Assembly: GCF_000186345.1 (NCBI RefSeq)
Contig: NC_014962.1
Coordinates: forward strand, 1,550,001 to 1,614,000
Origin: Isosphaera pallida ATCC 43644
GTDB lineage: Bacteria; Planctomycetota; Planctomycetia; Isosphaerales; Isosphaeraceae
DNA length: 64,000 nucleotides
Direction: 5' to 3'
The notes below the pieces were generated by a model. It saw only the letters and a program-made list of their open reading frames with translations, ran no database searches and had not been told where the DNA came from. A program made the translations under genes and the position numbers. Shown in pieces: positions 43,401-64,000 of this stretch. How positions within the stretch are numbered: position 1 is the first letter of the stretch; the number at the start of each line of letters is the position of its first letter.

Positions 43401-44901
43401 CGCGATTGTCAAACGCCACGGCCTCGTCGAACGCCTCCGGCACCGCGGTCTCTTGAATGGCTTCGAGTTCTTCGGCCAACTCCAAGTCGATGTCGTCCTC
43501 ATCGCCCGCGAACAGGTCGCGGTTGGCGTGAGGATAAACTGAGGAAACCGGGGTCGTGGAAGGGGCTGTGGTAGGGCGGGATCGGGAGCCGAGATCGCCA
43601 GGACGGTCCGTCCGACGCGAAGGCGTGGAGGTGGGGCCGACGGTTTCTTCATGGGCCGCTTCGATTGGAGAGGTTGGCACGCTTGCTGAGGTCGGTGGGA
43701 GTGGACGCGCCTTGTCCTTCAAGGAAGGACGGCTTCGACCACGATCCCGACGACGCGCGGGAGTTCGATCGAACTCGGCCTCGAACGGATCCTCGACGGC
43801 CGACGGCGGCGGAGACGTATTCTCGGGGACATCGCTGGCAGTGGGGTTTCGATTCTCAGGAGCCTGGAGGGCCGATGGTTCGGCGAGGAGCGCTTCGCGA
43901 TGGCGCGGGTTGCGATTGGGTGGCAACTCCAAGCCAAGATCGGCGGTCTCGTACAGCGGGTCCTCAGTCTCCCGAGCGGGTCTTGGAGTCGTCGCCACGG
44001 ATGGGGGGTGTTCAACCACGTCGCCTTCGCTGGCGTCGAAGTCGGTCGGTTCGGTGACGGGTCGGGGCTCCGAACGGGTCCAATTGCGTGAGCGAACCCA
44101 TTCGCCGCGGTCTCGACTTGGCCGAGGACGGAGTGATTCGGCTCCAAAACGATCCTCAGCCAAATCATTCGAGCGGGTTTCGACCCGCTCCTGATGCGCT
44201 GCGGGGGAGGTCTCTTGAACCAATCCCCGACCAAAGCTGCTTGGAGCGGGCTGGGACGGGGCGGCGGGTTCCGGCGTGGTGGTCGATGGCAGGGACGAGA
44301 TGACGCCGTGTTCGGCGGCGGGGCGGGGCGGCGATGTGGGGAGGGGGGCTTGGGAGGTCGTACCAAACGGCTCCGAGCCACTCAACGGCGTCAACGGCCC
44401 GGATTCGCCGGTGAGTCCTTCCCCGAAGACGCGGGGCTCTTGGGGACGGGACGGAAAAGGACGACGACGATACCGACTGCGGTCCATCCGGTCGGGGCGT
44501 TCGCCACGTCCCCGATCCCGGCCCCTTCGGAGATCGCGGTCCCGATCCCGGCCCCGCGCCGGCCGCGGAGTGGCAGGCGAGGCAAGCGGATCGCTTTCCT
44601 CACCGGACTCATCGGCGACTAAGCTCGCGCTGGTCGAGCCGCCGCGCGGTTGGAAGTATTGGGGATCGACGTCCGAAACATGCAGGAAGCCGTTGCGACC
44701 CACCGAGAAATCGACGAACGCGGCCTGAAAGCCAGGTTCGATGTTCACCACCCGGCCTTTATAGATGTTGCCCGTATAGTTCTCGTGACTGGCCCGTTCG
44801 ACGTAAAGCTCTTCGAGAACGCCGTTTTCCACCACGGCGATTCGGCACTCCTCCGATTGGAGGACGTTGATGAGCATTTCTTTCTTTTTCATCGTCATCA
44901 T
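40480..44901 (-). CDS. rne: Ribonuclease E/G with giant insertion in S1 domain
   Basis: A predicted 1473-residue endoribonuclease. The S1 domain starts near the N-terminus (GNIYKGRVVNIEPGFQAAFVDFSVGRNGFLHV), but is interrupted after about residue 85. It resumes at about 1020 (EIFRRGDEVIVQVIKESIGNKG). The inserted 930 residues are low-complexity: Arg/Pro/Ser-rich with an acidic Asp/Glu tract near 900-970. The catalytic core follows, with metal-binding Asp1234 (AIDVNSGN) and Asp1277 (NDFIDM), and the Zn-link CPHC near 1335. The C-terminus is short, unlike the E. coli degradosome scaffold. The start is one of three nearby ATGs (44901 or 44892). It probably processes and decays RNA. The DUF2344 and PTS genes lie upstream. 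Confidence 0.92.
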   Translation of the reverse strand: MMTMKKKEMLINVLQSEECRIAVVENGVLEELYVERASHENYTGNIYKGRVVNIEPGFQAAFVDFSVGRNGFLHVSDVDPQYFQPRGGSTSASLVADESGEESDPLASPATPRPARGRDRDRDLRRGRDRGRGERPDRMDRSRYRRRPFPSRPQEPRVFGEGLTGESGPLTPLSGSEPFGTTSQAPLPTSPPRPAAEHGVISSLPSTTTPEPAAPSQPAPSSFGRGLVQETSPAAHQERVETRSNDLAEDRFGAESLRPRPSRDRGEWVRSRNWTRSEPRPVTEPTDFDASEGDVVEHPPSVATTPRPARETEDPLYETADLGLELPPNRNPRHREALLAEPSALQAPENRNPTASDVPENTSPPPSAVEDPFEAEFDRTPARRRDRGRSRPSLKDKARPLPPTSASVPTSPIEAAHEETVGPTSTPSRRTDRPGDLGSRSRPTTAPSTTPVSSVYPHANRDLFAGDEDDIDLELAEELEAIQETAVPEAFDEAVAFDNRAEPRELPTSLRGRQAIRARGGDRPAPHPTAPIPPLPPPKLRDRDIGSQTPSATSPPAIPPAITPSTRARSLSPAPPRPLRPAAPPIPHGRAGEPGYVPRRERTRLALTAITPFDTETEAQTTMEPRRDVAGFEPTLEPPASRRSLARPEPTPGHHPASRRGQVKPEREDQFDVDSEATIEPEERIETDLGLDPLVTAPGSESETDSAGRRRRRRRRRSRRRDRGIETVSQPRRSMTEDAEFDDLPTDLDEPDGEFEEELESPAPAQSPVRSEREEVQSAHPSTTRERLPEPPFDTGGEREPAAETRRRLRERPAVDLGPLYKHRVERERSVDRPRARTEFGGDLIEEESPPQTPAPREPRGRGHRAMPSLPAPASPSRPTDRHDDEFAHPEDLDSLDDLHDDLEEFEDEDEELEDLDEAELEDFEGLSEDDDDHDQEVEDQDHVEVEVDEERRSALARRPVDPEDEIDPELQEEIRREIEEIAVLEAEMGLRGPDGRYKRGEDRAGTVIPGSRTRGVVRPPIQEIFRRGDEVIVQVIKESIGNKGPTLSTYISIPGRYLVLMPGLNRVGVSRKINDEAQRRKLKEIMEELNPPNNLGFIVRTAGVDRTKKELARDMAYLLRLWKAILRRIKRTQAPAVIYQESDMITRTIRDVFSDDIDTIWIDERQAYEHAREFLQNVMPRYVDRLKLYEGKTPLFHLYGLEEEIQRIHRKHVPLPGGGSIIIEPTEALVAIDVNSGNFRVENDAEKTAYETNLRAAKEIARQLRLRDLGGVIINDFIDMREEKHRRGVERALREAIKRDRARTKVLRMSQFGIIEMTRQRIRPSLKRSVYQDCPHCQGTGLIKTPESLSIEVMRLLALAAHRPEVRRLVLTVSTPTAEYLANKKRKEIAQLEIEGNLTIEIRATDVGPGDQLKLECFDQNGVELRSLIPGGPSPVTSGAGYSSGLAALPTPPAGTGYGSHGVGSSSRRSGY

Positions 44902-45466: not shown

Positions 45467-46462
45467 TTAGACGCGATCGGGGTCAAGACCAAGATCCCGG
45501 TCGTCGTCCGAAACGTCGGAGTGGCCATCCCCAGCCCTGATAGCGGGGTTGTCCCTGTTCGTGGTCGGGGAACTGCTGGGCGACTCGACCAGTTCGTCGG
45601 CGAGCGTCACGTCGTCGCGGGACAGGACACCACCGGACTGGGTTATGCTCAAGGCGTCGAGGTAAGCGAGCAGTTCCTCGGCTCTGGCCGCGCCTTGGGT
45701 CAGGGCGCGCAGGGTGAACCGCAGCACGGGACGAGTGGCGGGGGGATCGGGTGCGTTGGGGTCAGGTTCGTAGTCGAGTCTCAGGTCGAGCAAGGACTCC
45801 TTGAGGTCGATCGTGACGGGTTGGTCGTGGGGACGATCGGGCCGGGACCGAACCAATGGCGCGGTGGGGGCCTGAAGCAGCGAGGCGATCGCATGTTCAA
45901 CGCGGCACGGATCGGGTGCTGCGCAAAGCGTTCGTCCCGGGGCCAGCCGCAGCTTGATGCCGGGTCCCAGACGTCCGTCATAAAACGTGGGGTCGGTAGA
46001 GGCGACTGAACGCTCCGGCCAGCGGACCGAGTAGACCGCCCACACGGGATGGCCAGCACGCCCGGGGGCCAGGTCGCGCTGGTTGGTCGGTCCTTCCAAA
46101 AAGCGAAGACCTTCAGGGGCCTGAGCCTGGAGCCGTCGCGCGGTCTCCTGAGCCGAGAGCGGCTCGGTCAGGCTCAGTTCCAGAGGCTCGCGACGTCCTT
46201 CCACACCCAGACCTAGGGGCAGGGGGAAGACCAATTTAGGACGGGGGTTGTAACCTTGCGAATAAGACATCGGCAACTCGGCTCGCCTCAACATCCGTTC
46301 GAGGCAACGCATGAGATCATGGTGACTGATGAACCGAAGATCGCCGGTTTTGGCGAACCGAAGGCGAACTCGGGTGACGGCGGGACGTTCACCGCCGAGG
46401 GGGGGGAGCGCCGGGGCGGGGAGGTGCCGCGCGCCGGTTTCAGGCGAAGCGGGCACGGTCAT
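45467..46462 (-). CDS. DUF2344 / TIGR03936 family protein
   Basis: A predicted 331-residue DUF2344 protein. Residues about 30-260 carry the signature RLRFAKTGDLRFISHHDLMRCLERMLRRAELP, then SQGYNPRPKL. In many bacteria this module is fused to or encoded beside a radical SAM protein and often lies next to RNase E/G, as it does here. It contains no CxxxCxxC itself, and no radical SAM gene is present in the window. The ATG at 46462 overlaps the ptsI stop (ATGA), so translation is coupled. The C-terminal 70 residues are an Asp/Ser-rich tail. The biochemical role of the family is unknown; association with RNA or tRNA modification is speculative. Confidence 0.87.
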   Translation of the reverse strand: MTVPASPETGARHLPAPALPPLGGERPAVTRVRLRFAKTGDLRFISHHDLMRCLERMLRRAELPMSYSQGYNPRPKLVFPLPLGLGVEGRREPLELSLTEPLSAQETARRLQAQAPEGLRFLEGPTNQRDLAPGRAGHPVWAVYSVRWPERSVASTDPTFYDGRLGPGIKLRLAPGRTLCAAPDPCRVEHAIASLLQAPTAPLVRSRPDRPHDQPVTIDLKESLLDLRLDYEPDPNAPDPPATRPVLRFTLRALTQGAARAEELLAYLDALSITQSGGVLSRDDVTLADELVESPSSSPTTNRDNPAIRAGDGHSDVSDDDRDLGLDPDRV

Positions 46463-48471
46463 GGGGACTCGTTGGCCTCCGGTTGGGGGGAAGTCGTGGA
46501 CAGGCGCGTCGAGGGGGAGGGCGAGGCATGGTCGGTGACCAACGACGAGGTCGCCAGTTCGCCGCTTTCCTCGTCGCCTTCGCACTCGTTCTCAAACACG
46601 TCGCGCACGAGGGTCTCGCGGAGTAGCGACTCGACTTCGCTGGCCAAGTCGAGGTTGCGGGCTTGATGGGCTAGGGCTTCCAGATCGGACATGCGGACCC
46701 GGCGCACCAGGTCTTTGATGACGCCGATGCGTTGGGGCGGCATGCTCAAGGACCGCAGTCCGAGTCCCAGCAGAACGAGGACCGATTTGGGATCACTACC
46801 CATTGCGCCGCAGACGGTCAATTCGGTGTCGTGTTCTCGAGCGGCCGCCACCACCAGGGCGATGAGACGCAACACCGAGGGGTCCAATCCCGAGGAGAGG
46901 TCGGCCACCAGGGGGTTAGCCCGATCCACTGCCAGGGTGTACTGGACCAGGTCATTGGTACCGATCGAGAGGAAATCGGCTTCGCGGGCCAACTTGTCGG
47001 CGATCAGGGCGGCGGAGGGAACCTCGATCATGGCTCCTAGGGGAGGGAGCGGGTCGGGTGGCGTATCGCCGCGGGCGCGGAGCTCCTCGGCGGCTTGGAC
47101 CACCAGCGCCCGAGCCTGACGAAACTCGCTCAAAGTGGTGACCATCGGAAACAGGATCCGCACGTCCCCCAAACGCGCAGCGCGGAGCACGGCGCGAAGT
47201 TGGAGCTTGAACTCCTCGGGATCGCGAAGCGAGCGGCGTAGCGATCGCAATCCCAAACAGGGGTTGACTTCCTCGACTCGATGACGTTGGAGACCGTTGA
47301 CGCGAGCGACCGGAGACTTGTCGGCCCCCAGGTCGAGGGTGCGGATTGTGACCGGGCGTCCCTCCAGCGCGCGGACGACCCGGGCATACGCTTGGAACTG
47401 TGCCTCTTCGTCGGGGGGGTGCGGGGCGTTGAGGAAGAGGAATTCGGAGCGGAACAGGCCGATCCCCTCCGCGCCCCGCTCCCGGCAATCATCGGCTTCT
47501 TCGGGGAACTCGATGTTGCCCAGGATCGACACGGCCACCTTGTCGCAAGTCAGCGCCGGCAGGATCGCCTGGCGGTCGGCAACGCGACGGCGACGAGCTC
47601 GTTTGTGAGCGAGACGACGGGCCTGGTTGCGGGTCGCCTCGTCGGGGTTGAGGATCAAAATCCCATCATCGCCATCGAGGATGGCTTCGCCACAGAGGGG
47701 AACCTGGTCCAGGAAGGGTCCCAACCCCACCACGGCGGGCAGACCCAACGCCGCGGCCACGATCGCGGTGTGACTGGAGACTCCACCGGCTTCGGTTGCG
47801 AATCCCAGGACGCGCCGCGGGTCCAACCGAGCCGTTTCGCTAGGACTGAGATCGTGGGCTAGGATCAGCACTGGCTCGTCGAAGATTTCCCAAGGGCGAA
47901 TCTGAGCCGATTCGGTTCCGGCGAGTTGGTCGAGGATGCGTTGTTCGATGTCCAACAGGTCCGCGGCGCGGGCGGCGAGATAGGGGTTGCTGGTTCCCAA
48001 TGCTCGGAGACGCTCAGCATGACGTCGGAGCACCTGAACCACCGCGCCCGCGGCATCAATGGTTTGGGAGCGGATGACCTCCTCGGCCTCACGTTGGAGG
48101 GAGGGATCGGCGATCATCGAGGCGTGGACCCGCAGGATGTCGGCATACTGGGTCCCTAACCGGTCCCGAGCCTCGTTGACCGCGTCGGAGGTGGCCCGGG
48201 CGGCTTCGGTCAACGCCTGAGCCAGACGTTGGATTTCCGAATCCACCTGATTCGGCTCGATGCTGCGTACCGTTTGTCCGGGTGTGCGGGGATCCAGGGC
48301 GATCACTGGACCGATTGCCAAGCCGGAGCCAACCGCCAGACCGACGAACCGCTTGGGGGCGGCACCACCGTGACGACGGCCCCCTCCACCCGAGGTCATT
48401 GACGCGGGGGAAGGCGATGGGACGGGGGGGCGTTCCCAAATCGAGGAGATCGACCAGTCGTGGGAGTTCAT
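46459..48471 (-). CDS. ptsI: PTS enzyme I (PEP-protein phosphotransferase)
   Basis: A predicted 670-residue EI that transfers phosphate from PEP to HPr. The phosphorylated histidine is His234 in GGVSSHTAIVA. The PEP-binding C-terminal domain has GLFRSEFLFL, TLDLGADK, ATG-like SIGTNDLVQYTL and the catalytic Cys554 in TVCGAMGSD. Overall length and order fit the family, with extra tails: about 30 residues of Gly/Ser-rich lead and about 45 acidic/Ser residues at the end. Its start codon overlaps the HPr stop (ATGA), and its stop overlaps the start of the DUF2344 gene (ATGA). No sugar-specific EIIB or EIIC is in the window, so a regulatory circuit is likely. Confidence 0.95.
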   Translation of the reverse strand: MNSHDWSISSIWERPPVPSPSPASMTSGGGGRRHGGAAPKRFVGLAVGSGLAIGPVIALDPRTPGQTVRSIEPNQVDSEIQRLAQALTEAARATSDAVNEARDRLGTQYADILRVHASMIADPSLQREAEEVIRSQTIDAAGAVVQVLRRHAERLRALGTSNPYLAARAADLLDIEQRILDQLAGTESAQIRPWEIFDEPVLILAHDLSPSETARLDPRRVLGFATEAGGVSSHTAIVAAALGLPAVVGLGPFLDQVPLCGEAILDGDDGILILNPDEATRNQARRLAHKRARRRRVADRQAILPALTCDKVAVSILGNIEFPEEADDCRERGAEGIGLFRSEFLFLNAPHPPDEEAQFQAYARVVRALEGRPVTIRTLDLGADKSPVARVNGLQRHRVEEVNPCLGLRSLRRSLRDPEEFKLQLRAVLRAARLGDVRILFPMVTTLSEFRQARALVVQAAEELRARGDTPPDPLPPLGAMIEVPSAALIADKLAREADFLSIGTNDLVQYTLAVDRANPLVADLSSGLDPSVLRLIALVVAAAREHDTELTVCGAMGSDPKSVLVLLGLGLRSLSMPPQRIGVIKDLVRRVRMSDLEALAHQARNLDLASEVESLLRETLVRDVFENECEGDEESGELATSSLVTDHASPSPSTRLSTTSPQPEANESP

Positions 48472-48833
48472 GGCGCACGACCCTCCACATTGGTGTCAGC
48501 TCCAGTGGGTGGAGCGGAGGGGTCGGAGGTGGTGGAACTGGGGTGCTCCTCTTCGTCCTCGTAAAACCGCGCCGCGACGAGTTGGGCCAGAGCCTCCAGG
48601 GCCGCTTCGGCGTCTGGTCCCCGAGCTTCCAGTTCCAGAATCGTTCCGCGTTCAGCGGCCAGCGAAGTCAGGTCCAGAATGCTTTTGCCGTTGAACGAAC
48701 CGCCCCGGTAATGGACGGTGATCTCTGCTTGAAAACGGGACGCCAACCGCACGAACTGATCGGCCGGGCGCAGGTGAAGGCCCAGGAAGTTGAGGATTTC
48801 CACCTGGCGACGGGCGACGGACGGTTCGGACAT
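48468..48833 (-). CDS. ptsH: HPr phosphocarrier protein
   Basis: A predicted 121-residue HPr. The phosphorylated histidine is His20 in GLHLRPADQF. The regulatory serine equivalent is Ser51 in NGKSILDLTSLAAERG. The fold region ends near residue 95. A tail of about 25 residues rich in Asp/Glu/Ser/Thr follows, absent from E. coli HPr. The serine suggests, but does not prove, control by an HPr kinase; none is in this window. The ATG at 48833 is preferred over the in-frame start at 48854. The stop overlaps the ptsI start by ATGA, so ptsH and ptsI are coupled. A 455-bp gap separates it from the EIIA gene. Confidence 0.93.
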   Translation of the reverse strand: MSEPSVARRQVEILNFLGLHLRPADQFVRLASRFQAEITVHYRGGSFNGKSILDLTSLAAERGTILELEARGPDAEAALEALAQLVAARFYEDEEEHPSSTTSDPSAPPTGADTNVEGRAP

Positions 48834-49288
48834 GCGCGACGACTCGGGCGGCAAGGGATCACGAAGAAGGGATCGCTGGGCGGGCTACTCGGTTCAACCG
48901 ACCAACTCGCAACGCATTGGCGACGCCAGGACTCGGCGACGCAGGTGCGGGACGCTCGCCCGAAAACTGAGTCGATCGAAGAGAACCGACTCCCGGAACA
49001 ACAACCATCATGCGGACGGGACAGGAAGTGGATCCGCGCGGCAGCAGAAGGTCAACGGAGGGTTGGTATCAACAGGTGTTTGGTCAGCGTCCACCATCCA
49101 CCGCACCAGGAAGACCACATCCCTCGCGGAAGCGCCAAGCGGCTGGGATCGTGCGTCAACCCGACGCGTTCCTTTTGGGAACCACCACTTGCCTAAGGGC
49201 AGGGACTCGCCTCCGGGGGAACCCAACCGCGTCGCCGAAGCTGACCACCAACTACGGAAGAGCTCCCCAGAAACCATAACCGATAGGG
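48834..49288. other. Intergenic gap, 455 bp, inside the PTS block
   Basis: This lies between the EIIA gene and ptsH on the same strand. No gene, terminator or promoter could be supported. Its size suggests ptsH may have its own promoter. Confidence 0.4.
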
Positions 49289-49768
49289 TCAACGGCCGAG
49301 CATCATCCCCTGTTCGGCTTCGAGAATGAGATCCCAAACCTGGGCGGGTGTTTTAGACTGCCGCAGCAGGTTGACGAAGTTCTCATCCTTCAAATGCCGC
49401 GTGATGTTTTCCAGCGCACGGAGATGATCGCCGGGTTGGTTGGGCGGGGAGATCAGCAGGAAGAAGACGTAGACCGGTTCGCCGTCGAGGGCGGCGAATT
49501 CCACTCCTTTGCGAGAAAGCGCCACCGCGCCGAGGAGCCGCTGCGCGGAGGGATGTCGGGTATGGGGAACGGCCACGCCTTGACCAATTCCGGTGGAACC
49601 GAGTTCCTCGCGGCTGAGGATCGCCTTGATGACGCTTTCAAAATCCTCTTCAGAAAGCAGTCCCGCGGTTAACAACCCGCGGGCGACTTCGCGAACCACC
49701 TCGGGTTTGGTGGTGGATTCCAAATCGACGGAGATCGCTTCACGAACCACAAAATCAGAGAGTTTCAT
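49289..49768 (-). CDS. PTS EIIA, fructose/nitrogen type
   Basis: A predicted 159-residue PTS EIIA domain of the mannitol/fructose/PtsN family. The phosphorylated histidine is His69 in GVAVPHTRHP. Flanking family segments are LSREELGSTGIGQG upstream and LLISPPNQPGDHLRALENI downstream. As a lone EIIA encoded near HPr and EI, with no permease domain, it resembles the nitrogen PTS output protein, which signals through its phosphorylation state. The ATG at 49768 matches the domain start; a longer frame to 49807 was dropped. It is the promoter-proximal gene of the block. What it regulates is unknown, and PtsN partners such as an rpoN gene are not in the window. Confidence 0.9.
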   Translation of the reverse strand: MKLSDFVVREAISVDLESTTKPEVVREVARGLLTAGLLSEEDFESVIKAILSREELGSTGIGQGVAVPHTRHPSAQRLLGAVALSRKGVEFAALDGEPVYVFFLLISPPNQPGDHLRALENITRHLKDENFVNLLRQSKTPAQVWDLILEAEQGMMLGR

Positions 49769-50753
49769 CCAGCGCAGCCCTCCAGGGCAATCGGGGCCGG
49801 ATCGCAACGCCGCGGGATTCGAGAATCGAAAGGCTCAACCCGAGCGTAACGAACCAAGCGGGGCGGTTCGAGGTCGGGTCGTCAACCGGTGGATCGAATC
49901 GCGTGGGGGGAGGTGTCGGGTTCATTCAACTCGACGCCCGGCGCGAGCCGGACACTCGCAACCGGGAGAGAGGTTGTGTTTCCGTGCGACGGCCTCGTCA
50001 TGGGTCGCCCTGACTCTCGACGCGTTCGGAGTCGAACGCAAACCCTTCGAGTCATGCCCGCAGGAGGCGGCGGAAACCGAGAGGAGTTGGGAAGCCAATG
50101 GCAATGAACCGGGAGCAACCTCCAGGACATCTCGACCAGACCTGATGGAATGAACGAATAGGGCGGACGAAAAGGCGCGACCCGAGGGGACGCGACGAGA
50201 CCGAAGCGATCGGCCTAGGTGATCGATGGGGATGGCAACATCCAAGGAGGACGGACCTTGACGACCAGATCCCGCTTTTCGGTCAAATGACCGTCGTCAG
50301 CCGCAACGTCGGGACGGACAATGACGGGTTGGTTGACGGAAAGACAGTCGGTCGTAGGGTTGGAGGTCCATCTCATCCTGGTGACAATCATGGGACTGGC
50401 GTGCGGGGCGTACCTTAGTCCTTCGCGTCCAACGGGTCCAAGCGGAGACCACCCAAGAAGCAATCCGTTCCGCCCGATTCGGGACTTGGATCACGGCCCT
50501 CTTCCCGCTGATTCCGGCCAAATCGGTCTGGCCGACCAACGTCGCCAAGTGGGCTGGGCGGTGGGATGAGGAATCTCGTCCGTGAATCGGGATGAGGGAC
50601 CTCGGACACGATGCGCTCAATGAGCGTCGAGCGTCACGCTCGGTTCCGAAGCCGTCTCGATAACGGTCACCCAACCATGAACGGGAACTGGACGAAGGGA
50701 AGGTTGCGAGGGACGCCACGATATTCCACCCTACACGGTGGCCACCATGTCGG
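49769..50753. other. Intergenic gap, 985 bp
   Basis: The longest gap in the window, between the EIIA gene and the phosphatase gene, both minus strand. Several frames of 70-160 codons overlap on both strands; all are Arg/Pro/Ser-rich with no family features. No tRNA or terminator was recognised. A small RNA cannot be excluded. Confidence 0.4.
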
Positions 50754-52307: not shown

Positions 52308-53211
52308 TGTCGGTTAGGCACCCTGGGAGAATCGCCCGCTGCCCTCCTAGAACGAGACAGGGGTGGGGTTGCGAGAATCAATCCGAGAAACGCGATTGGC
52401 GCGGACGGACGGTGATTTGGCAAGTCCCCGGCTGATTTTTGGAAAGATTTCCAAAACGTTCTCAAAGTCAACCGCCGTGTGGACGATGCAATCTGTAGCG
52501 ATTGCGCCTGGAGTCCCGAAAAAGACGGTTCAATCGATCGAAGCGAGGCCGAATCGAGAGATTGGCGTAGCTGGATCGAGGCGGACCGACCAAGCTCAAA
52601 TGGACTCGCAGGGCGCGATCTGGATGGAATCGGCTTTCCCCACCTTCTACCAGATGACGAGGCGACCCGCCGTGGCAGACCTGAATGTTGACCCCCAACC
52701 GGTGGCCGGTGAACAGCGAACCGAACTCGGGCATGGGGATCGGATCCGCGGGGAGGGCCGCTGCCGTCGGGAAGGAACCACACGGATGGAGGAGACCCTC
52801 ATCGACCGCGAACCGGACGGAACCGACTGGCACCAGTCGGTTGCGATTGACCGACCGATGGGATGCCAGTATCACAACGCCCCGACGAAGCCCTTGGTCT
52901 TGCCCGGTTCGAACGGGTCCGACTCCAAGGCCGGCGGGCCAGCCAAACTCGGAACCCCGACCGCTGGGATGGAACCCACTGGTCGGGATGCCGGACCGAT
53001 CGCGCCCGCGGGCGGATCGGATCGTCAGTCGTCTTTGTTTTCCTGGCGGGACTTGTCGGAGCGATCGGCTTCGACTCCCGGGTGGGGTTGGGATCAAGGA
53101 TGGATCGAGTGTCTGCCGCGGGGTCGCCGCGAGGGATCGTCCCACGGGACGGCTCTCCGCTCCGGTCGTCAGGAGAACGGCCGGCCGACTCGTCGGCGAA
53201 AGGAGGTCGCG
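52308..53211. other. Intergenic region, 904 bp, upstream of secretin
   Basis: The secretin frame is open back to 52363, but the sequence upstream of 53212 is not protein-like and precedes a signal peptide, so it is treated as non-coding. Competing minus-strand frames (52468-53454) also lack family features. A regulatory leader may lie here. Confidence 0.45.
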
Positions 53212-56200
53212 TTGGGAAGGCTCAAGACATACGCTCTCCTCATGACGGCTGGCGCGTGGGGGCCTTTGGCCACCTCCCCGTCGGTCCAGGCCCAGGTCGC
53301 CGCTAGAGGCGAGGCGGCCCCTTCCGCGTCGGCACGCCCGGCGGCTCCGGTGCCCCCAATCGAGTATCTCAAGGCCGGAGCGCAGCTCTACAACGCGAGC
53401 AAGTTCGACTTGGCGGCCAAGTATCTCCAGGCGGCCCACGACTATCGTGACCAACTCACTCCCGAGGAACGTGAGGTGCTGCAGGATTACCTTGACGCCT
53501 ATCGGGAGGCCACTGGCAAGAGCGTGACCGCCGCCGCGGCGAGTCCCGCTCTCAAGCGGGACGTCCAGATCCGCACCACGTCGGCCGGTTCGGAAAAGTC
53601 CCGCGCGATGGAACTGCTTGGCCGAGCCCGGCGCGAGTTGACCCTAGGCCGTCCCGAGGAGGCCAAGGCGTTGGCCCGCGAAGCGATGACCCTCAATGTC
53701 AGCTTCGCCCCAGGCGAGGATAGCCCTGAAGTGGTGATGCGCGACATCGAGCAGGCCGCCACCGTGCCGGCGACCCGCGGCGGCACCACCGACGAAAAAC
53801 AAAAGGGCCGATGGCTGCTCAAAACCGCGCGTGAGCAGATGGCGATGGGCAACCTCGAGGCCGCCGCCGAGAAGCTCGCCGAAGTCGAACGCATGTCGGT
53901 CAAATGGGGTCTGTTCGACGACACGCCCGCCAAGGTGCGCAAAGATCTTGAAAAAATGATGAAGCGGGTCGGTTCCAACGCCGCGCCCGGCGGTTCGAAC
54001 ACGTCCGGTCGCAAAGACTTGGAGCAGGCCCGCGATCGTCTGCGTCAAGCCCGCGCTGCGTTGGACTCGAACGACCTAGACAAGGCCGAGGAGATTGCCC
54101 GCGAAGTCGAATCGTGGAACCTCAAATACGGCGTGTTCGAGGATCATCCTCTCAAGGTGATGGCCGCGGTCAAGGCGTTGCGCCAACGTGACGAGATGCG
54201 TGGTTTGGGCAGCAAAGCGACCCGTCCCACCGAGGGCATCTATCGAACCTTGGTCGAGCAGGCACGGGAACGGATTGCCCAGGGCAAGCTCGACGAGGCC
54301 GAGGAACTGGCCCGCAAGGCCAAATCGATCAACGCCTATCCCCCCGTCACGGCGGATCGGGCCGAGTCGGTCCTTTATGACCTGGCGTTGCTTCGCGCCA
54401 AGGCGGAGAAGGAGGGGAAGGTCGCCGAGCCCATGAGTACTCGGCTTGAACGCGAGGCCAATGAATTGCTGGCTCAGGGCAAGCGCGAGGAGGCCGCGGC
54501 CAAGTTCGCCGAAGCCGACCGGATGTTGGCTCAGGAAACCGGCCGTCCTCAGGTGGGCGAGCCGTCTCTGAGCGAGGAACCAGCTCCTACCAGCAAGGTG
54601 GACGCCCAGGTGGTAACCGTGACGACATCCGAACCTCAAGAGGGTGACCAAGCTGTCGAGAATGCCACTAGGACGGCCGCGTTGGCGTTGGATGATCCAG
54701 ACGTGTCCGATCCGGTTGATCTCAAGGATGAACCGCTGCCTCAACCCATCGAGGATTTTGCCGACGCAGACGACTCGACCAAAACTGACAACGCCGCGAT
54801 GGAACAGGCTCAAGCCCTGCTGAAAGCCGGCAACTTCGCTGCTGCCCGCGCCAAGGCCAAGGAAGCCATGAGTCGTCCCGAGCTGGCTGAGGCCGCCGAG
54901 GATCTGATGGCCCAGATTGGTCTGGCCGAGCAAGCCGCCGCTTTGAGCCTGTATGAGAATGCGTTGGCCGTGATGCGTCAGGGCGACTTCCCTCGGGCCA
55001 AGGCGATGCTGGAGGAGGTTCTGGCCTCTCAGGCCGAGTTGGACCCCGCTCTCCACGACCGCATCCGTCAAATGCTTGAACGGATCGTCGTCCCTGACGC
55101 CAACGGTGATAAGAACGTGGCCGAAGGTCAAACCGCGGTGACCAATGGTTCTAAGCCGGTTAGCCTCGAGGACGCTGAGACCATCCGGGTCCAACGGCTC
55201 AACGCCGAGGTCGGCGAGGCGGTGGCCAAGGCCCGACGTATGTTGGAGGTCGATCCCGACCAGTCGATCCGCATCCTTGAAGAGACCCTGACTCGGGTTC
55301 AAAGCGAACCGGTTTCTCCCTCCGCTTCCCGCGCGATGGTCCGACGAGTCGAGGTCGCCCTGGAGCTGGCCCGCCGCGACAAGGCCGAGTTTGACGCGCG
55401 GATGAAGGACGCCAACGAACGGGCGGCCATCGAACGCAAGCGTCTGCGGATTCTCGAAGCCGAGAAGGCCAAGCTGGAGCAATTCGGCGAGTTGATGACC
55501 AAGGCGACCGAGGCTCTGAACAACAACCAATACGTCGAAGCCGAAGCGTTTGCCAAAAAGGCGTTGGAAATCGACCCCAACGACGTAACCGCCACCGCGT
55601 TGATCTGGAAGGCGCAGTTCGAGCGGCGATACAAGACCGACGAAGAGACCCGCTCGCTCAAGGAGAAGTCGTTCGTCACCGCCATGCAGGAACTCGACAA
55701 GGCGTTCATCGTCCCTGACGATGTGCAGACCCGGTCGATCTCCTACCCCGAGACCTTCGCCGACCTGACCAAGAAGCGTCGCGAAGCTCAAGAACGCATG
55801 GCCTACCGCAAGCCGGAATCGACCCTGGCGATTGAGCGCAAGCTCAACGAGCCAATCACCATCAATGTTGATAAGCAACCGCTTGCGCAAGCGATGGAGT
55901 TCATCCGCAATTACACCGGTTTGAACGTGGTGATTGACCCCAAGGCGCTGGCGGCCGAGGGTCTCACGATGGAGTCGCCGGTGACCCTGCACGCCAACGA
56001 CATCCGGCTCAAGAACGCTCTGCGTTACATGCTGGAACCCCTGGGGTTGACCTACCGGGCTGAGGAGGAAGTGCTGCTGATCACCTCACCCCAGTCCAAC
56101 ACCGCACGGTTGAGAACGGAAACCTACTACGTTGGCGATCTGGTCTTGGGACCCAACCAGCCCCGTAACGCTTTGGACGGCAACACCCAACTGGCCTCAG

Positions 56201-57666
56201 CCACCAGCGATCCGATGCTCAATCCGGTCACGACCAACACGATGGCTCAAACCCCCTTTGGTCAGGTGCCGGCGTCCAGTCTCAACGGTAACGCTGGATC
56301 GGCCAACGGCCTGCCCAGCGGAACCAACATCGTCAGCACTCCGGCCACCAAGGTCGATATGACTCCGCTGATTCAACTCATCACCACCTCAATCGCGCCG
56401 GGAACCTGGAAACTCCAAAGCGACGAGTACGGCGGCCTTGGCTTTGGTCAGTTGGGTGGCGATGCCGGACTGGGTGGTGGATTGGGCGGCGATGTGGGCG
56501 GTCAAGTGGGCACGATCACGCCGTTCTTCCTCAACATCAGCTTGATTATCCGCCACACCGACGAGGTCCACGAGCAGGTGGACGACCTGCTGCGGCAGCT
56601 TCGCCGGCTCCAGGACCTGCAAATCTCGGTGGAGGTGCGGTTCATCACGGTGGACGACAACTTCTTCGAGGAAATCGGTGTGGACTTCGACTTCGAGATC
56701 CAGGACGACGTAGTGGGTCGCAAGAGTTCCTTCGCCATCCTCAATGGCACGGCGAGTGACCTGTTCATCGACCCAACTGGCGACGATGTGGTGTCGCCGT
56801 TCCTGATCAACCAGAACCGCGATAAGGCCATTGGCAAACGTCCGCTGGTGGTTGGACGAGCCGCCCCCGGCGACGCGACCAACCCGGCGACCGCCTTCAC
56901 CCCCAACCTGAACATCCCGTTCGTCAACAACACCGAGCAGGCCGCCACTCCCACCCTCGCGGGGTTCGTCCCCGGTGCCGGCGCGACCCTAGGTGTGTCG
57001 ATCCTTTCCGACTTGGAAGTCTATCTGTTCATGCGGGCGGCTCAAACCGACGTTCGCTCGAACATCATCCAGGCTCCCAAGGTGACCACCTTCAACGGAG
57101 CCTTCGCCCAGGTCGCTAGCCAAACTCAGCAGTTCTACGTCGCTAGCGTGACCCCGGTGGTTGCCTTCGGCGCAGTGGCCTTCACGCCCGACGTCCAGCC
57201 GCTGCCCATCGGTATCACCTTGAACGTCCAGCCGGTGATCACGGCGGATCGTCGCTATGTGCGGCTGTCGCTCAACCCGGTGTTCATCTCCAACGCCAGC
57301 TTCCAGCAGTTCACCGTGGCCGGCGGCGTGGGTGGCATCGGCGGCATCGGCGGCATTGGCGGTGGTGATGGAGCGCAGATTGCCACCACCATCCAATTGC
57401 CCACCTTCACCCTGTTCACGGTCAACACCACGGTCACCGTCCCCGACGGCGGCACTGTGTTGCTCGGCGGTGTGAAGACCTCTGAAGAAGAGCGACGCGA
57501 GTTCGGCGTGCCGGTCCTCTCCAAGACGCCTTACCTCAACCGCCTCTTCCGCAATATTGGCATCGGTCGGACCTCCCGCTCGATTATGATGATGGTCACC
57601 CCCCGCATCATCATCCTCGAAGAGGAGGAAGAGCGTCTGGGCATCCCACCCACCATCTCGCTCTGA
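53212..57666 (+). CDS. Giant secretin with TPR-like N-terminal region
   Basis: A predicted 1484-residue outer-membrane secretin-family protein (type II/III secretion, type IV pilus type). Start TTG at 53212 is chosen because a perfect AAAGGAGG lies 5-6 bases before it and a signal peptide (LKTYALLMTAGAWGPLATSPSVQAQ) follows. Residues about 40-700 are helical TPR-like repeats. An N0/STN-type domain is at about 878-962 (ITINVDKQPLAQAMEFI), then a Gly-rich linker near 1073-1100. The secretin domain is at about 1110-1475, with VPDGGTVLLGG near 1410 and MMVTPRIIIL near 1460. No ATPase, pseudopilin or prepilin genes are nearby, so it is an orphan. Its transported substrate is unknown; LEPR-XLL proteins are candidates only. 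Confidence 0.9.
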   Translation: MGRLKTYALLMTAGAWGPLATSPSVQAQVAARGEAAPSASARPAAPVPPIEYLKAGAQLYNASKFDLAAKYLQAAHDYRDQLTPEEREVLQDYLDAYREATGKSVTAAAASPALKRDVQIRTTSAGSEKSRAMELLGRARRELTLGRPEEAKALAREAMTLNVSFAPGEDSPEVVMRDIEQAATVPATRGGTTDEKQKGRWLLKTAREQMAMGNLEAAAEKLAEVERMSVKWGLFDDTPAKVRKDLEKMMKRVGSNAAPGGSNTSGRKDLEQARDRLRQARAALDSNDLDKAEEIAREVESWNLKYGVFEDHPLKVMAAVKALRQRDEMRGLGSKATRPTEGIYRTLVEQARERIAQGKLDEAEELARKAKSINAYPPVTADRAESVLYDLALLRAKAEKEGKVAEPMSTRLEREANELLAQGKREEAAAKFAEADRMLAQETGRPQVGEPSLSEEPAPTSKVDAQVVTVTTSEPQEGDQAVENATRTAALALDDPDVSDPVDLKDEPLPQPIEDFADADDSTKTDNAAMEQAQALLKAGNFAAARAKAKEAMSRPELAEAAEDLMAQIGLAEQAAALSLYENALAVMRQGDFPRAKAMLEEVLASQAELDPALHDRIRQMLERIVVPDANGDKNVAEGQTAVTNGSKPVSLEDAETIRVQRLNAEVGEAVAKARRMLEVDPDQSIRILEETLTRVQSEPVSPSASRAMVRRVEVALELARRDKAEFDARMKDANERAAIERKRLRILEAEKAKLEQFGELMTKATEALNNNQYVEAEAFAKKALEIDPNDVTATALIWKAQFERRYKTDEETRSLKEKSFVTAMQELDKAFIVPDDVQTRSISYPETFADLTKKRREAQERMAYRKPESTLAIERKLNEPITINVDKQPLAQAMEFIRNYTGLNVVIDPKALAAEGLTMESPVTLHANDIRLKNALRYMLEPLGLTYRAEEEVLLITSPQSNTARLRTETYYVGDLVLGPNQPRNALDGNTQLASATSDPMLNPVTTNTMAQTPFGQVPASSLNGNAGSANGLPSGTNIVSTPATKVDMTPLIQLITTSIAPGTWKLQSDEYGGLGFGQLGGDAGLGGGLGGDVGGQVGTITPFFLNISLIIRHTDEVHEQVDDLLRQLRRLQDLQISVEVRFITVDDNFFEEIGVDFDFEIQDDVVGRKSSFAILNGTASDLFIDPTGDDVVSPFLINQNRDKAIGKRPLVVGRAAPGDATNPATAFTPNLNIPFVNNTEQAATPTLAGFVPGAGATLGVSILSDLEVYLFMRAAQTDVRSNIIQAPKVTTFNGAFAQVASQTQQFYVASVTPVVAFGAVAFTPDVQPLPIGITLNVQPVITADRRYVRLSLNPVFISNASFQQFTVAGGVGGIGGIGGIGGGDGAQIATTIQLPTFTLFTVNTTVTVPDGGTVLLGGVKTSEEERREFGVPVLSKTPYLNRLFRNIGIGRTSRSIMMMVTPRIIILEEEEERLGIPPTISL

Positions 57667-57720: not shown

Positions 57721-57760
57721 CCGGCCTCGACGAGGGAACCCAATCCCCCGTCGAGGCCGG
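57721..57760. terminator. Hairpin between convergent secretin and LEPR genes
   Basis: A perfect 12-bp stem CCGGCCTCGACG / CGTCGAGGCCGG with a 16-base loop lies 55 bases after the secretin stop and 82 bases before the convergent gene end. It could terminate both. Confidence 0.7.
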
Positions 57761-60624: not shown

Positions 60625-60660
60625 CAATTCCGTAAGAACACACTCTTACTGAATGTAGTG

Positions 60661-61206
60661 ATGTTCATGGTCTCTCTCACAACGACACCCGTTCTGACCG
60701 TCATGTTGGTGGGAGAGGTTCCCGTCACGGATGATCCCTCCGCCGCGGTCAAACCGCCGTTCAATTACGCTGAGGCGATGCAGAAGTCGCTGTATTTCTA
60801 CGAGGCGCAGCAATCGGGGCGGCTCTCACCCAACAACCGCGTGACCTGGCGGGGCGACGCCTGTTTGACCGACGGTCAAGACCTCGGACGCGACCTCTCA
60901 GGAGGCTGGTTCGACGCGGGCGATCACTGGACCGCCAACCTCACCATGTCGTGGGCCGCGTTGTGTCTGGCCACCTCCGCCGATTTCTACCCCAAGGTCT
61001 GGAAGCGGGTCGGCCAAATGGATGAGTTACTTGAGGAACTCGTTCATGTCAATGATTACTTCGTCCGCTGCGTGCGAGAACTCGGCGACGCGGCCGAGGC
61101 GGTCCGCGACGGCGATTCCATGAAGGGTGCCTTCCTCAACAACTGCCTTCTACCCCGGATCCCCGTCTACAAGAAGGGCGTCAAGATCGGCGGCGACCCG
61201 ATTTGA
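60661..61206 (+). pseudogene. Truncated GH9 family glycosidase
   Basis: A frame of 181 codons. After a poor signal-like start, it matches the N-terminal part of family 9 endoglucanases. FNYAEAMQKSLYFYEAQQSGRL is followed by NNRVTWRGDACLTDGQDLGRDL and GGWFDAGDHW, where the Asp pair of DAGD includes the expected base of the inverting mechanism. QMDELLEELVHVNDYFVRCV follows. The rest of the (alpha/alpha)6 barrel and the catalytic acid Glu near the C-terminus are missing, as the family domain needs about 430 residues. The last 40 residues (DSMKGAFLNN onward) do not match. No remainder was found before the convergent sulfatase. It is therefore probably a decayed gene. Confidence 0.75.
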
Positions 61207-61327: not shown

Positions 61328-64000
61328 TTAGCGGTTACCTTCAAGAAGGGCACGAAGTTCGGCCAGGGTTTGGGCGTGGTCGGGATCGTTGGCCCGATTC
61401 TTCTGCTCAAGCGGGTCGTTGGCGTGGTCGTAGAGTTCCACGCCATTGGCTCCATCGTCCCAAACCGTGCAACGCCAACGCTCGGTCCGCACACTGCGGC
61501 CCTCGAAGCCTGCGCGACGAACTTGGGTGAACGCCGGACGATCCCACGACGCCTTGGGATTGTTGAGCAGGGGACGCAGGCTCGCCCCTGGTAGGTTGGG
61601 GGGCGGAGTCAGTCCCGCCAGGTCGGCCAAGGTGGGATACAGGTCGATCAATTCGACCGTGCGTTCGCAGGATTGTCCCTTAGCCTGGTCTGCCACGCCG
61701 TAACCGGCGATCACGAGGGGAACCCGCGCGGACTCCTCGAAATTGCTCTGCTTGAGCCAAAGTCCATGCTCGCCCAAGTGATACCCGTGGTCGGAAAGAA
61801 ACACAACGATGGTTTTGTCTCGCAGGCCCAATGCATCAATCGCCGCCAGAACCCGACCAAGCTGAGCGTCCACAAACGAGATCGAAGCCCAGTAGGCTTG
61901 CTTGCAGCGTCGTTCCTGCTCGGGCGTGATACCGAAGCTAGGCCAGGGACGGGTCGAGGCGAAGGCGGCGGCCGGCACGTCTTCGGGGATCATGTTGGGA
62001 CGCGGAGTCAACGACACCGTCTCAAACGGATAAAGGTCAAAGTATTTCTGAGGGGCGACATAAGGCGTGTGGGGACGGTAGAAACCGACCGCGAGGAACA
62101 AGGGTTGGTCTTGCCGTTGGTTGAGGATGCGGATGGCCTCGCTGGCCACTTTGCCGTCGGTGTGGTCCTCGTCCTTACCATCGGGGTCGCTCAAATAGCA
62201 CATCCCCGCGCCCAAGCCGCGCTTGGGTGTATGATTGATGATCTTAGGCTCAAGCTCAGACTTATCGATCCCGACAGGGTTGACCTTCTCAGACCACGAG
62301 GGGGGATCGTCCAGGCCGTCGGTGCCGATCTGACCGGGGTTGCCGTAGTGGTAGAGTTTGCCCACCCGCGCGACATGATACCCATTGGTTTTGAACAACT
62401 GAGGTAGTGTTAGAATATTGGGGTCGGTCTCGCGGAACTGTTTCTGGTTGTCGTACACCTTGGTTTGGTCGGGGCGAAGTCCGGTGAGGAAGGAAGCGCG
62501 GCTGGGGTTGCAAAGGGGATACTGGCAATAAGCCCGATCGAATCGAACCCCACGGGCTGCGAGTGCGTCTAGGTGGGGGGTCTTGACCTGGGGGTGACCA
62601 TAACAGCCCGCGTCGTTGTTCATGTCGTCCACCGTGATGAACACCACGTTGGGCCGTTGGACGGCGGCTGGAACCAAACGCGGAGGGCTGGCGGCCTGGG
62701 GTCGAGTCGCGGCGGCCTTCGTGGTGGCCGCGTCGCCAGCCGCCGGGCTGTTGGCCTGGAAGGTCGCCGCGGGGTCAGGGTCAGGCACCTTCAACTCAGC
62801 GCGGAGGCGTTCAAGCTCGGCATGCAGTTCAGCCTGAATCTGTGCGTATTCGGGCTTGCCGTAGACGCTGGTCAATTCCAAGGGATCGGTTTCAAGGTCG
62901 AACAGCTCCCACTCGTCGATGTCGTCGCCGTAGAACCGGACCAACTTGTAGCGGTCGGTCACCACGCCGTAATGCCTACGCACCGAGTGAACGCCTGGAT
63001 ATTCATAATAGTGATAGTAGAACGACTTGCGCCAATCAGCGGGGGTTTTGCCCTTGAGGATCGGCACCAGACTCCGTCCGTGAAGGTCATCGGGGGGGGT
63101 AAGGCCGGCGGCCTCCAGAAAGGTGGAGGCGAAATCGAGGTTAGATACCAGGTCGCGGTTGACTGAACCGGGTGCGACCACGCCAGGCCAACGGATCAAC
63201 AACGGTGTGCGCAACGACTCCTCGAAGATGAATCGCTTGTCGAACCAGCCGTGCTCGCCCAAATAAAATCCCTGATCGGAGCAGTAGACCACAATGGTGT
63301 TGTCGGCGACGCCGGCGGCCTCCAGCGCCTCCAGCAACCGCTGAACCGACTCGTCCACCGCTTTGACGCACCCCAGATAGTCGTGCATGTAACGGTTGTA
63401 CTTCCAACGAACCAGGTCGTTTCCTTCGAGCTTGGCTTGGCGGAAGGCGCGGTTACGTGGTTCGTAGTAGGCGTCCCAGACTCGGCGTTGTTCGGCGTTG
63501 AGCCGCGCTGGAGGGACCAACTTGAGGTCGCGCTCGTTCATGGTTCGAGCAATGGTCATATCCTGTTCCCGCTCCGCCTTGCCGCGACCGGCGTAGTCGT
63601 CGAACAAGGTGGGGGGCTCGGGATAGACCCGGTCGTTGTCGTGACCGAGGTGCCGCAGCGCCGGCTCCCACTCACGATGGGGCGCTTTATGATGAACCAT
63701 CCAAAGGAACGGCCGCGAAGGATCGCGTGATTGGGTGAACCACTGCAAAGCCCGTTCCGTAATCAAGTCGGTGACGTAGCCAGTTTTGGTGATTTTGCCG
63801 GTGGGCGTCAGGAAGTCGGGATTATAGTAATGCCCCTGACCCGGCAGGATTTCCCAGTCGTCGAAGCCGGTCGGTTCGCTTACAAGGTGCCACTTGCCGA
63901 AAAGCGCGGTTTGATACCCTGCCTTCTGGAGCAGTTTGGGGAAGGTGGTTTGGGAGCCGTCGAATCGACTACGATTGTCATAGAATCCGTGAGCGTGGGA
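61328..64000 (-). CDS. Tandem two-sulfatase fusion, N-terminus beyond window
   Basis: A frame open from 64000 to 61328, about 890 codons seen and incomplete at the N-terminus. The first part is the C-terminal two-thirds of one sulfatase: SQTTFPKLLQKAGYQTALFGKWH at the edge, FLWMVHHKAPHREWEP, and CSDQGFYLGEHGWFDKRF. An Ala/Thr/Pro-rich linker of about 50 residues (near TKAAATRPQAASP) joins it to a complete second sulfatase. That begins NVVFITVDDMNNDAGCYG and has the formylglycine motif CNPSR (Cys codon 62510-62512), resembling iduronate-2-sulfatase. Each sulfatase family is usually a separate 450-500 residue protein. The product is probably exported and may cut two sulfated glycans. Both need a Cys-modifying enzyme, not in the window. 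Confidence 0.9.
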   Translation of the reverse strand, partial: SHAHGFYDNRSRFDGSQTTFPKLLQKAGYQTALFGKWHLVSEPTGFDDWEILPGQGHYYNPDFLTPTGKITKTGYVTDLITERALQWFTQSRDPSRPFLWMVHHKAPHREWEPALRHLGHDNDRVYPEPPTLFDDYAGRGKAEREQDMTIARTMNERDLKLVPPARLNAEQRRVWDAYYEPRNRAFRQAKLEGNDLVRWKYNRYMHDYLGCVKAVDESVQRLLEALEAAGVADNTIVVYCSDQGFYLGEHGWFDKRFIFEESLRTPLLIRWPGVVAPGSVNRDLVSNLDFASTFLEAAGLTPPDDLHGRSLVPILKGKTPADWRKSFYYHYYEYPGVHSVRRHYGVVTDRYKLVRFYGDDIDEWELFDLETDPLELTSVYGKPEYAQIQAELHAELERLRAELKVPDPDPAATFQANSPAAGDAATTKAAATRPQAASPPRLVPAAVQRPNVVFITVDDMNNDAGCYGHPQVKTPHLDALAARGVRFDRAYCQYPLCNPSRASFLTGLRPDQTKVYDNQKQFRETDPNILTLPQLFKTNGYHVARVGKLYHYGNPGQIGTDGLDDPPSWSEKVNPVGIDKSELEPKIINHTPKRGLGAGMCYLSDPDGKDEDHTDGKVASEAIRILNQRQDQPLFLAVGFYRPHTPYVAPQKYFDLYPFETVSLTPRPNMIPEDVPAAAFASTRPWPSFGITPEQERRCKQAYWASISFVDAQLGRVLAAIDALGLRDKTIVVFLSDHGYHLGEHGLWLKQSNFEESARVPLVIAGYGVADQAKGQSCERTVELIDLYPTLADLAGLTPPPNLPGASLRPLLNNPKASWDRPAFTQVRRAGFEGRSVRTERWRCTVWDDGANGVELYDHANDPLEQKNRANDPDHAQTLAELRALLEGNR

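Follow-up and report, generated by a model that had tools for sequence, protein, structure and literature searches.

A giant secretin of Isosphaera pallida is probably the PilQ-type gate of a type IV pilus machine whose genes are scattered

We analysed a window of 64,000 nucleotides from Isosphaera pallida ATCC 43644 (C2:1550001-1614000, on the 5,472,964-base chromosome C2 of a genome of two contigs and 5,529,304 bases) and concentrated on a gene for a giant secretin. Its open reading frame (ORF) runs uninterrupted from a TTG at 53212 to 57666, encodes 1484 residues and lies behind a strong ribosome binding site (Table 1). Pfam finds a Secretin domain at residues 1277-1467 (E 5e-25) and an STN domain at 924-957 that stays below threshold, while AlphaFold2, run on the second half of the protein, builds an N0 fold over residues ~881-960 with a confidence score (pLDDT) of ~93, which matches the N0 domains of PilQ, GspD and InvG. 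The first-pass annotation, made from the letters alone, had called a single secretin frame here with N0-type and secretin domains; both calls are borne out, and the gene is real and conserved. Confidence is lower for the secretin strands (the second half has a mean pLDDT of 58.4), and the model is poor between ~966 and 1120. The protein has indeed about double the usual length: PilQ chains listed in the Protein Data Bank (PDB) have 571-901 residues, and the other secretin of Isosphaera has 779. A terminator-like hairpin directly downstream would fit transcription as a single gene.

In front of the N0 domain lies a helical arm of ~830 residues (49-880), longer than the ~660 residues of tetratricopeptide (TPR)-like repeats first proposed. 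The helical repeat character stands, and Pfam recognises one TPR region only (763-791, E 3e-5, slightly below its curated cut-off). An AlphaFold2 model from 24 sequences (mean pLDDT 77.2, pTM 0.31) is nearly all helix except for linkers: helical units are parted by short unstructured stretches, unstructured linkers occupy 447-523 and 631-650, the latter followed by very long helices (652-832). With so low a pTM, the model is to be read for the arm units themselves and not for their relative arrangement. A repeat profile detects four units of ~50 residues in the first part of the arm. It was built from 16 seed units of relatives with the Isosphaera protein excluded, the seed pattern having been written after viewing an alignment that included this protein. 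None of 47 shuffled first-880-residue stretches matched the profile. Across the 47 proteins it finds a mean of 4.2 units each, and some of those proteins, though not the Isosphaera one, had supplied seeds. The number of units varies by species, from three in L132 to seven in L061. A fold search with the arm returned helical repeat proteins of a general kind (TM-scores near 0.1), and nothing beyond "TPR-like" could be read from it.

Table 1 Features of the giant secretin gene (positions within the window)
Feature	Position	Strand	Basis
Ribosome binding site AAGGAGGT	53200..53207	+	read directly; ends 4 bases 5' of TTG
Giant secretin gene, PilQ-type (probable), 1484 aa	53212..57666	+	ORF, Pfam, NCBIfam
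Signal peptide, ~residues 1-27	53212..53292	+	judged by eye from sequence
TPR-like repeat arm, helical units, residues 49-442	53356..54537	+	AlphaFold2 model
Repeat unit 1, residues 133-183	53608..53760	+	repeat profile
Repeat unit 2, residues 202-250	53815..53961	+	repeat profile
Repeat unit 3, residues 277-322	54040..54177	+	repeat profile
Repeat unit 4, residues 347-387	54250..54372	+	repeat profile
Acidic unstructured linker, residues 443-527	54538..54792	+	pLDDT <50 over 447-523
Second helical part, long helices, residues 528-842, TPR_2 at 763-791	54793..55737	+	Pfam, AlphaFold2
N0 (STN-like) domain, ~residues 881-965	55852..56106	+	Pfam, AlphaFold2, structure matches
Low-complexity linker, residues 966-1047	56107..56352	+	pLDDT <50
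Conserved stretch, residues 1048-1136, possibly N1-like	56353..56619	+	alignment conservation; fold prediction not confident
Secretin domain, residues 1277-1467	57040..57612	+	Pfam PF00263
Hairpin, perfect 12-bp outer stem, terminator-like, without T run	57721..57760		sequence directly 3' of gene

Several comparisons place the protein closest to PilQ. Among nine NCBIfam models the PilQ model TIGR02515 scores highest (88.9 bits), and Vibrio cholerae PilQ is the first-ranked Foldseek match of the secretin-half model (E 2e-13). The N0 and secretin parts match those of GspD, PilQ, InvG and others with Z 7.8-11.6 among the matches shown (VIA). The order of domains is that of PilQ, with a C-terminal secretin behind N0, and the combination of an N-terminal TPR-like arm and a secretin with a PilM-type partner is the layout of Amuc_1098. 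PF13629, which we take to be linked to the Tad secretins RcpA/CpaC, was not listed by Pfam for the giant secretin at E up to 1.

The gene stands alone in Isosphaera. Whole-genome searches found no T2SSE ATPase, T2SSF or PilM gene in the window, as had been noticed at first sight; the nearest PilM lies 113 kb and the nearest ATPases ~140 kb away. The label "orphan" holds for Isosphaera and does not extend to all of its relatives. A conserved partner, which the first-pass annotation had proposed to look for, emerged from a contig scan of the best 80 of 507 relatives, in which 43 named loci with at least 8 kb upstream were assessed: a PilM-PilN fusion and two genes for single-helix membrane proteins lie directly 5' of the giant secretin on the same strand. 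All three are present in 21 loci, PilM in 22 and at least one partner in 23. Partner-bearing loci include those of Singulisphaera acidiphila (L104), Singulisphaera sp. GP187 (L096), Paludisphaera soli (L103), Aquisphaera insulae (L113) and Bythopirellula polymerisocia (L153), with the complete set in Singulisphaera, Paludisphaera and Aquisphaera. In the remaining 20 loci none was detected. In a further genome of the same class (G205), PilM, the second gene, the third gene and a giant secretin of 1420 residues form one same-strand run. In other classes PilM shares the fetched locus with a shorter secretin in 6 of 20 loci, and in one of these classes (L085) the secretin is followed by four pilin-like genes, judged by eye. 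Apart from the secretin itself, no consistent gene order is common to the Isosphaera window and the relatives.

In Isosphaera the matching operon lies elsewhere on the chromosome, at 1.48-1.49 Mb (C2:1483442-1490350). The single PilM match of the genome (C2:1489121-1490170) belongs to the first of its three minus-strand genes. The first protein has 912 residues (L092:8613-11351), with PilM_2 at 61-410 in Pfam; it passes the pilM model TIGR01175 (158 bits, cut-off 133), and its top score is to Amuc_1101_fam (218 bits), under the cut-off of 650. GspL was not listed for this protein by NCBIfam at E up to 1e-6. Behind the PilM part follow the residues TNLLP and then a hydrophobic helix at 438-456; T419, N420, L421 and P423 are invariant in 22 aligned sequences. 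Since INLLP-type motifs mark the start of PilN, we read the protein as a PilM-PilN fusion, which is the build of GspL, and PilM and PilN appear to be fused in all 22 aligned sequences. The Pfam PilN model, which may miss a fused PilN, found no match in the Isosphaera genome. The second protein (530 residues) has one hydrophobic segment at 16-34 and the third (765 residues) one at 62-80. By profile comparison the second gene is related to the second gene of the pilM-secretin operons of family f45 (two loci; 95.3 percent). Of these f45 second genes, that of L085 matches Amuc_1100_fam weakly (E 7e-4) and that of L088 does not. Among the 23 members of the Isosphaera second-gene family, four match Amuc_1100_fam (best E 0.06), and single members weakly match GspM (E 0.014) or GspB (E 0.04). 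A kinship of the third gene with the third gene of f45 was unsupported (18.8 percent), and profile searches of the PDB with the second and third genes gave no meaningful match. From gene position only, the second gene is a PilO-like and the third a PilP/GspC-like candidate.

The motor parts that the annotation had suggested seeking elsewhere, ATPase and pseudopilin genes, were found at 4.1 Mb. Whole-genome searches gave six ATPases at three sites (PF00437) and F-type proteins at 4.11, 1.11 and 0.21 Mb (PF00482), all outside the window. The cluster at 4.1 Mb encodes one PilT, one PilC/GspF and a pair of PilB/GspE-type ATPases that have MshEN domains, along with a row of pilin-like genes; six of the latter were tested and five carry N_methyl. 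The PilT of this cluster passes its model (444.7 bits, cut-off 319.1), as does a second PilT-family ATPase of the genome (387.4). The genome holds assembly and retraction ATPases and PilC, with PilT over and PilB and PilC slightly under the curated cut-offs. The pilin series ends in a frame of 2187 residues (L015:4519-11082, C2 ~4122318-4128881) that begins like GspK, as judged by eye, has no Pfam match and is a candidate giant minor pseudopilin. A lone GspF-like gene (L188:9212-10285, C2 ~1110711-1111784) lies beside a 2075-residue frame, far from the detected ATPases. A whole-genome search with PF00263 found two secretins, the giant one and one of 779 residues, and none in the 4.1 Mb cluster or the PilM operon.

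Together, our results suggest, with a probability of a little over three in four, that the giant secretin serves the cell's type IV pilus machine as its PilQ-type gate in the outer membrane. This reading is supported by the domains, by the recurring partner operon and by the different type of the sole other secretin. The first-pass annotation had suggested that this may be the gate of an uncharacterised secretion or pilus system, to be given up if a complete type II secretion or pilus locus elsewhere lacked a secretin of its own. An outer-membrane gate it very probably is, and the system is recognisable from the PilM-type operon in relatives; the 4.1 Mb cluster and the PilM operon, both devoid of a secretin, come near to such a locus. 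The giant secretin is probably the separated gate of this type IV pilus machine, and an apparent orphan becomes a likely part of a known machine whose genes are scattered across the Isosphaera genome.

We then propose a mechanistic model. As in the rest of the family, a dozen or so copies would form a ring in the outer membrane, and every copy would send its N0 domain and long TPR-like arm into the periplasm, where they would meet a putative inner-membrane complex of the PilM-PilN fusion and the two single-helix proteins. PilB would polymerise the filament and PilT retract it, so that, with PilC and the pilins of the 4.1 Mb cluster, a retractable pilus would pass through the ring; the pairing of the giant gate with this motor is presumed. 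Such a machine may have a role in the reported pili and gliding of Isosphaera pallida. A rearrangement in the Isosphaera lineage would have split the giant secretin gene from the PilM operon. A single inversion would leave the two as they now lie: the operon on the minus strand, its third gene ending at C2:1483442, and the secretin on the plus strand with its start at C2:1603212. It also predicts that archease and the kinase to the left of the operon adjoin each other in an uninverted relative, which was the case in neither of two Singulisphaera genomes. Separation of the secretin from the operon probably occurred more than once, since in the initial set of 20 whole genomes from the class PilM lies inside the fetched locus in one and mfd in 12. 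In one same-class family (L052, L056-L059, L061, L062, L064, L065, L068-L070) the repair gene mfd is a regular neighbour of the giant secretin, as is a conserved gene for a lipoprotein-like protein of ~460 residues.

A number of observations weigh against this assignment. The giant secretin falls far short of three curated cut-offs, that of PilQ (88.9 against 284.35 bits), that of GspD TIGR02517 (76.4 against 351.35) and that of the Amuc_1098 model NF042912 (72.4 against 750), so sequence alone cannot tell pilus from type II secretion, and the claim is that the protein would work like PilQ, not that it is a certified family member. In 20 of the 43 loci no upstream partner gene was detected, and the single PilM among the 20 same-class loci belongs on this side too. 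No recognised family could be assigned to the third operon gene. PilM is present in nine of the ten planctomycete genomes that lack a secretin match, and six of these nine belong to family f35, so either the pairing is not strict or the query misses divergent secretins. In the 4.1 Mb cluster PilB1 reaches 632 with the PilB model and 616 with the GspE model, each time under cut-off, and the PilC gene scores highest as GspF (391.5 bits, cut-off 424). Further parts are scattered, with a PilT and a GspE-like gene at 1.46 Mb and a GspF-like gene at 1.11 Mb. The second secretin is best as GspD in NCBIfam (146.5 bits, cut-off 351) and lies ~100 kb from the Tad genes, so that its assignment to a machine is tentative as well.

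The main rival is that the same parts perform type II secretion, the ATPase, GspF and pseudopilin cluster at 4.1 Mb exporting folded enzymes through the giant gate and not a long pilus. The GspF score, the near equality of GspE and PilB and the weak GspM and GspB matches would fit it, as would several large pseudopilin-like genes in the cluster, including the GspK-like one, and a pilin that scored weakly as GspG (32.9 bits, cut-off 88.85). However, two PilT-family ATPases exceed their cut-off, and retraction is a property of pili; the first operon protein passes the PilM model, and GspL is not listed for it at E up to 1e-6; PilQ leads both the family and the fold scores; and the organism bears pili according to passages of PMC3072084. 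We thus consider type II secretion unlikely.

Alternatively, the pairing could be reversed, the 779-residue secretin then being the gate of the 4.1 Mb machine and the giant secretin that of the Tad pilus or of other parts. At 0.21 Mb lies a Tad-like cluster that includes RcpC/CpaB as well as a TadA-type ATPase (353 bits, cut-off 373); the N-terminal part of the Tad-type ATPase (L012:5674-7356) holds a run of collagen-like G-V-T-G-x repeats. The 779-residue secretin stands outside this cluster, at 0.10 Mb, and its GspD score would fit a reversal, as would the lack of any pilus gene near the giant secretin in Isosphaera. Yet it carries PF13629 and is followed by a 423-residue gene and a TPR gene (L009:7220-12361), a trio kept in Singulisphaera acidiphila, Singulisphaera sp. 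GP187, Paludisphaera soli and Aquisphaera insulae (4/4), where no match to Isosphaera Tad, pilB or pilM genes occurs within the 12-20 kb around it. These four relatives have two or three secretins each, always including one giant (frame 1477-1560 residues). The second secretin looks Tad-like, of a different type and with other neighbours, whereas the recurring neighbours of the giant one are PilM-type genes, and the reversed pairing appears very improbable. That the ring belongs to a pilus-unrelated system that borrowed a secretin, as the solitary gene and an arm far longer than in known secretins might suggest, is hardly credible, because the order of PilM, two membrane proteins and secretin is also found in other planctomycete classes, where the secretin is shorter, so that the giant form looks like an enlarged ordinary version.

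To analyze the distribution of the giant secretin, we searched 294 planctomycete genomes with its query half. It was matched in 284, including all 20 others of the class, and PilM in 291; with both near universal, their co-occurrence is uninformative. Family f76 is poor in both, PilM being missing in 3 of 4 genomes and the secretin match absent or weak (E 1e-10 to 3e-12) in all four. Frames of 1195-1706 residues were found at all 20 same-class loci. The estimated N0 start has a median at residue 891 (639-1057) in 21 Planctomycetia proteins and at 542 (248-777) in 20 proteins of other classes, which were chosen mostly from better-scoring genomes and are not a random draw; a rank test of these starts gives p 8e-8, which is not independent evidence since shared ancestry makes it one or few events. 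The distinctive feature is the enlarged arm: the gate is enlarged across a class with an unusually wide periplasm.

The enlarged arm invites a more tentative idea, which we hold to be doubtful though possible, that the crateriform structures of planctomycetes have the giant TPR-PilQ as their ring in the outer membrane. The long arms, the enlarged PilM-PilN fusion and its partners would then act as a "press stud" that pins both membranes together over the wide periplasm and emits the pili-like fibres. Passages of PMC3072084 describe pit-like wall features, numerous pili and gliding motility in Isosphaera pallida IS1B. In Planctopirus, as described in parts of PMC5394234, at least some crateriform structures join outer and inner membrane, large pits bear 12-nm pili-like fibres in some cases, and a cell has ~104 such structures by extrapolation. 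Described Phycisphaeraceae are without pits in the relevant passages of PMC8882080 and PMC7783415. It suits the idea that large pits bear fibres and join membranes, that described Phycisphaeraceae are pitless and that the arm is longer in Planctomycetia than in the loci examined from other classes. No pits were observed in Rubripirellula lacrimiformis (Pirellulaceae) according to a passage of PMC8303584, which counts against a simple rule linking arm and pit; the same paper, in part, likens appendages of its authors' strains to the Thermus type IV pilus machine. In the open-licence literature we found no paper that names a pit protein, and the one paper bringing planctomycetes, secretin and crateriform together makes no link in its passages. 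Crateriform structures are a planctomycete hallmark, and a giant PilQ as their ring would, if true, name a protein for them.

The window also holds genes of other kinds. A single minus-strand frame at 61328-64000, extending past the window, contains tandem sulfatase units (two Sulfatase and two SGSH_C stretches). At 60658-61206 on the plus strand, a 182-residue frame, whose match to glycosyl hydrolase family 9 starts at position 1 and stops at position 113 of 444, is a truncated gene or a frame break. A 1473-residue RNase E/G frame (40480-44901, minus strand) has its Pfam match beginning only at residue 1053, and a minus-strand cluster of PTS enzyme I, HPr and EIIA type 2 lies at 46459-49807.

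Among known systems, three PilQ-like proteins of Planctopirus limnophila, Plim_0794, Plim_3284 and Plim_3688, share the PilQ-like label and the class with the Isosphaera protein; their single deletions and a triple mutant were viable, in a section of PMC11958385 that names Plim_3281 as the third gene of the triple mutant and reports no pilus or surface phenotype. GspD shares the order from N0 to secretin, and GspD chains are among the top structural matches, but the GspD cut-off is missed and the genome has PilT-type ATPases. The PilQ proteins of Vibrio, Pseudomonas and Neisseria share the N0 and secretin domains, the best fold match and, judging from relatives, PilM/PilN-type genes upstream. 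The Isosphaera protein differs in having one confident N0, a long linker and a partner in which PilM and PilN are fused; to our knowledge, these PilQ proteins have no TPR arm. A precedent is PilQ of Akkermansia muciniphila (Amuc_1098), likewise a type IV pilus secretin of the PVC superphylum; as described in part of PMC4960237, it sits in the outer membrane, has 907 residues and combines three TPRs at the N-terminus with a secretin at the C-terminus. The Isosphaera PilM-type partner scores highest to the Amuc_1101 family of the Akkermansia pilus genes. With 1484 residues, four repeats of another type and a second helical block, the Isosphaera giant secretin is the Akkermansia PilQ design in enlarged form, but it stays short of the curated Amuc_1098 and PilQ cut-offs.

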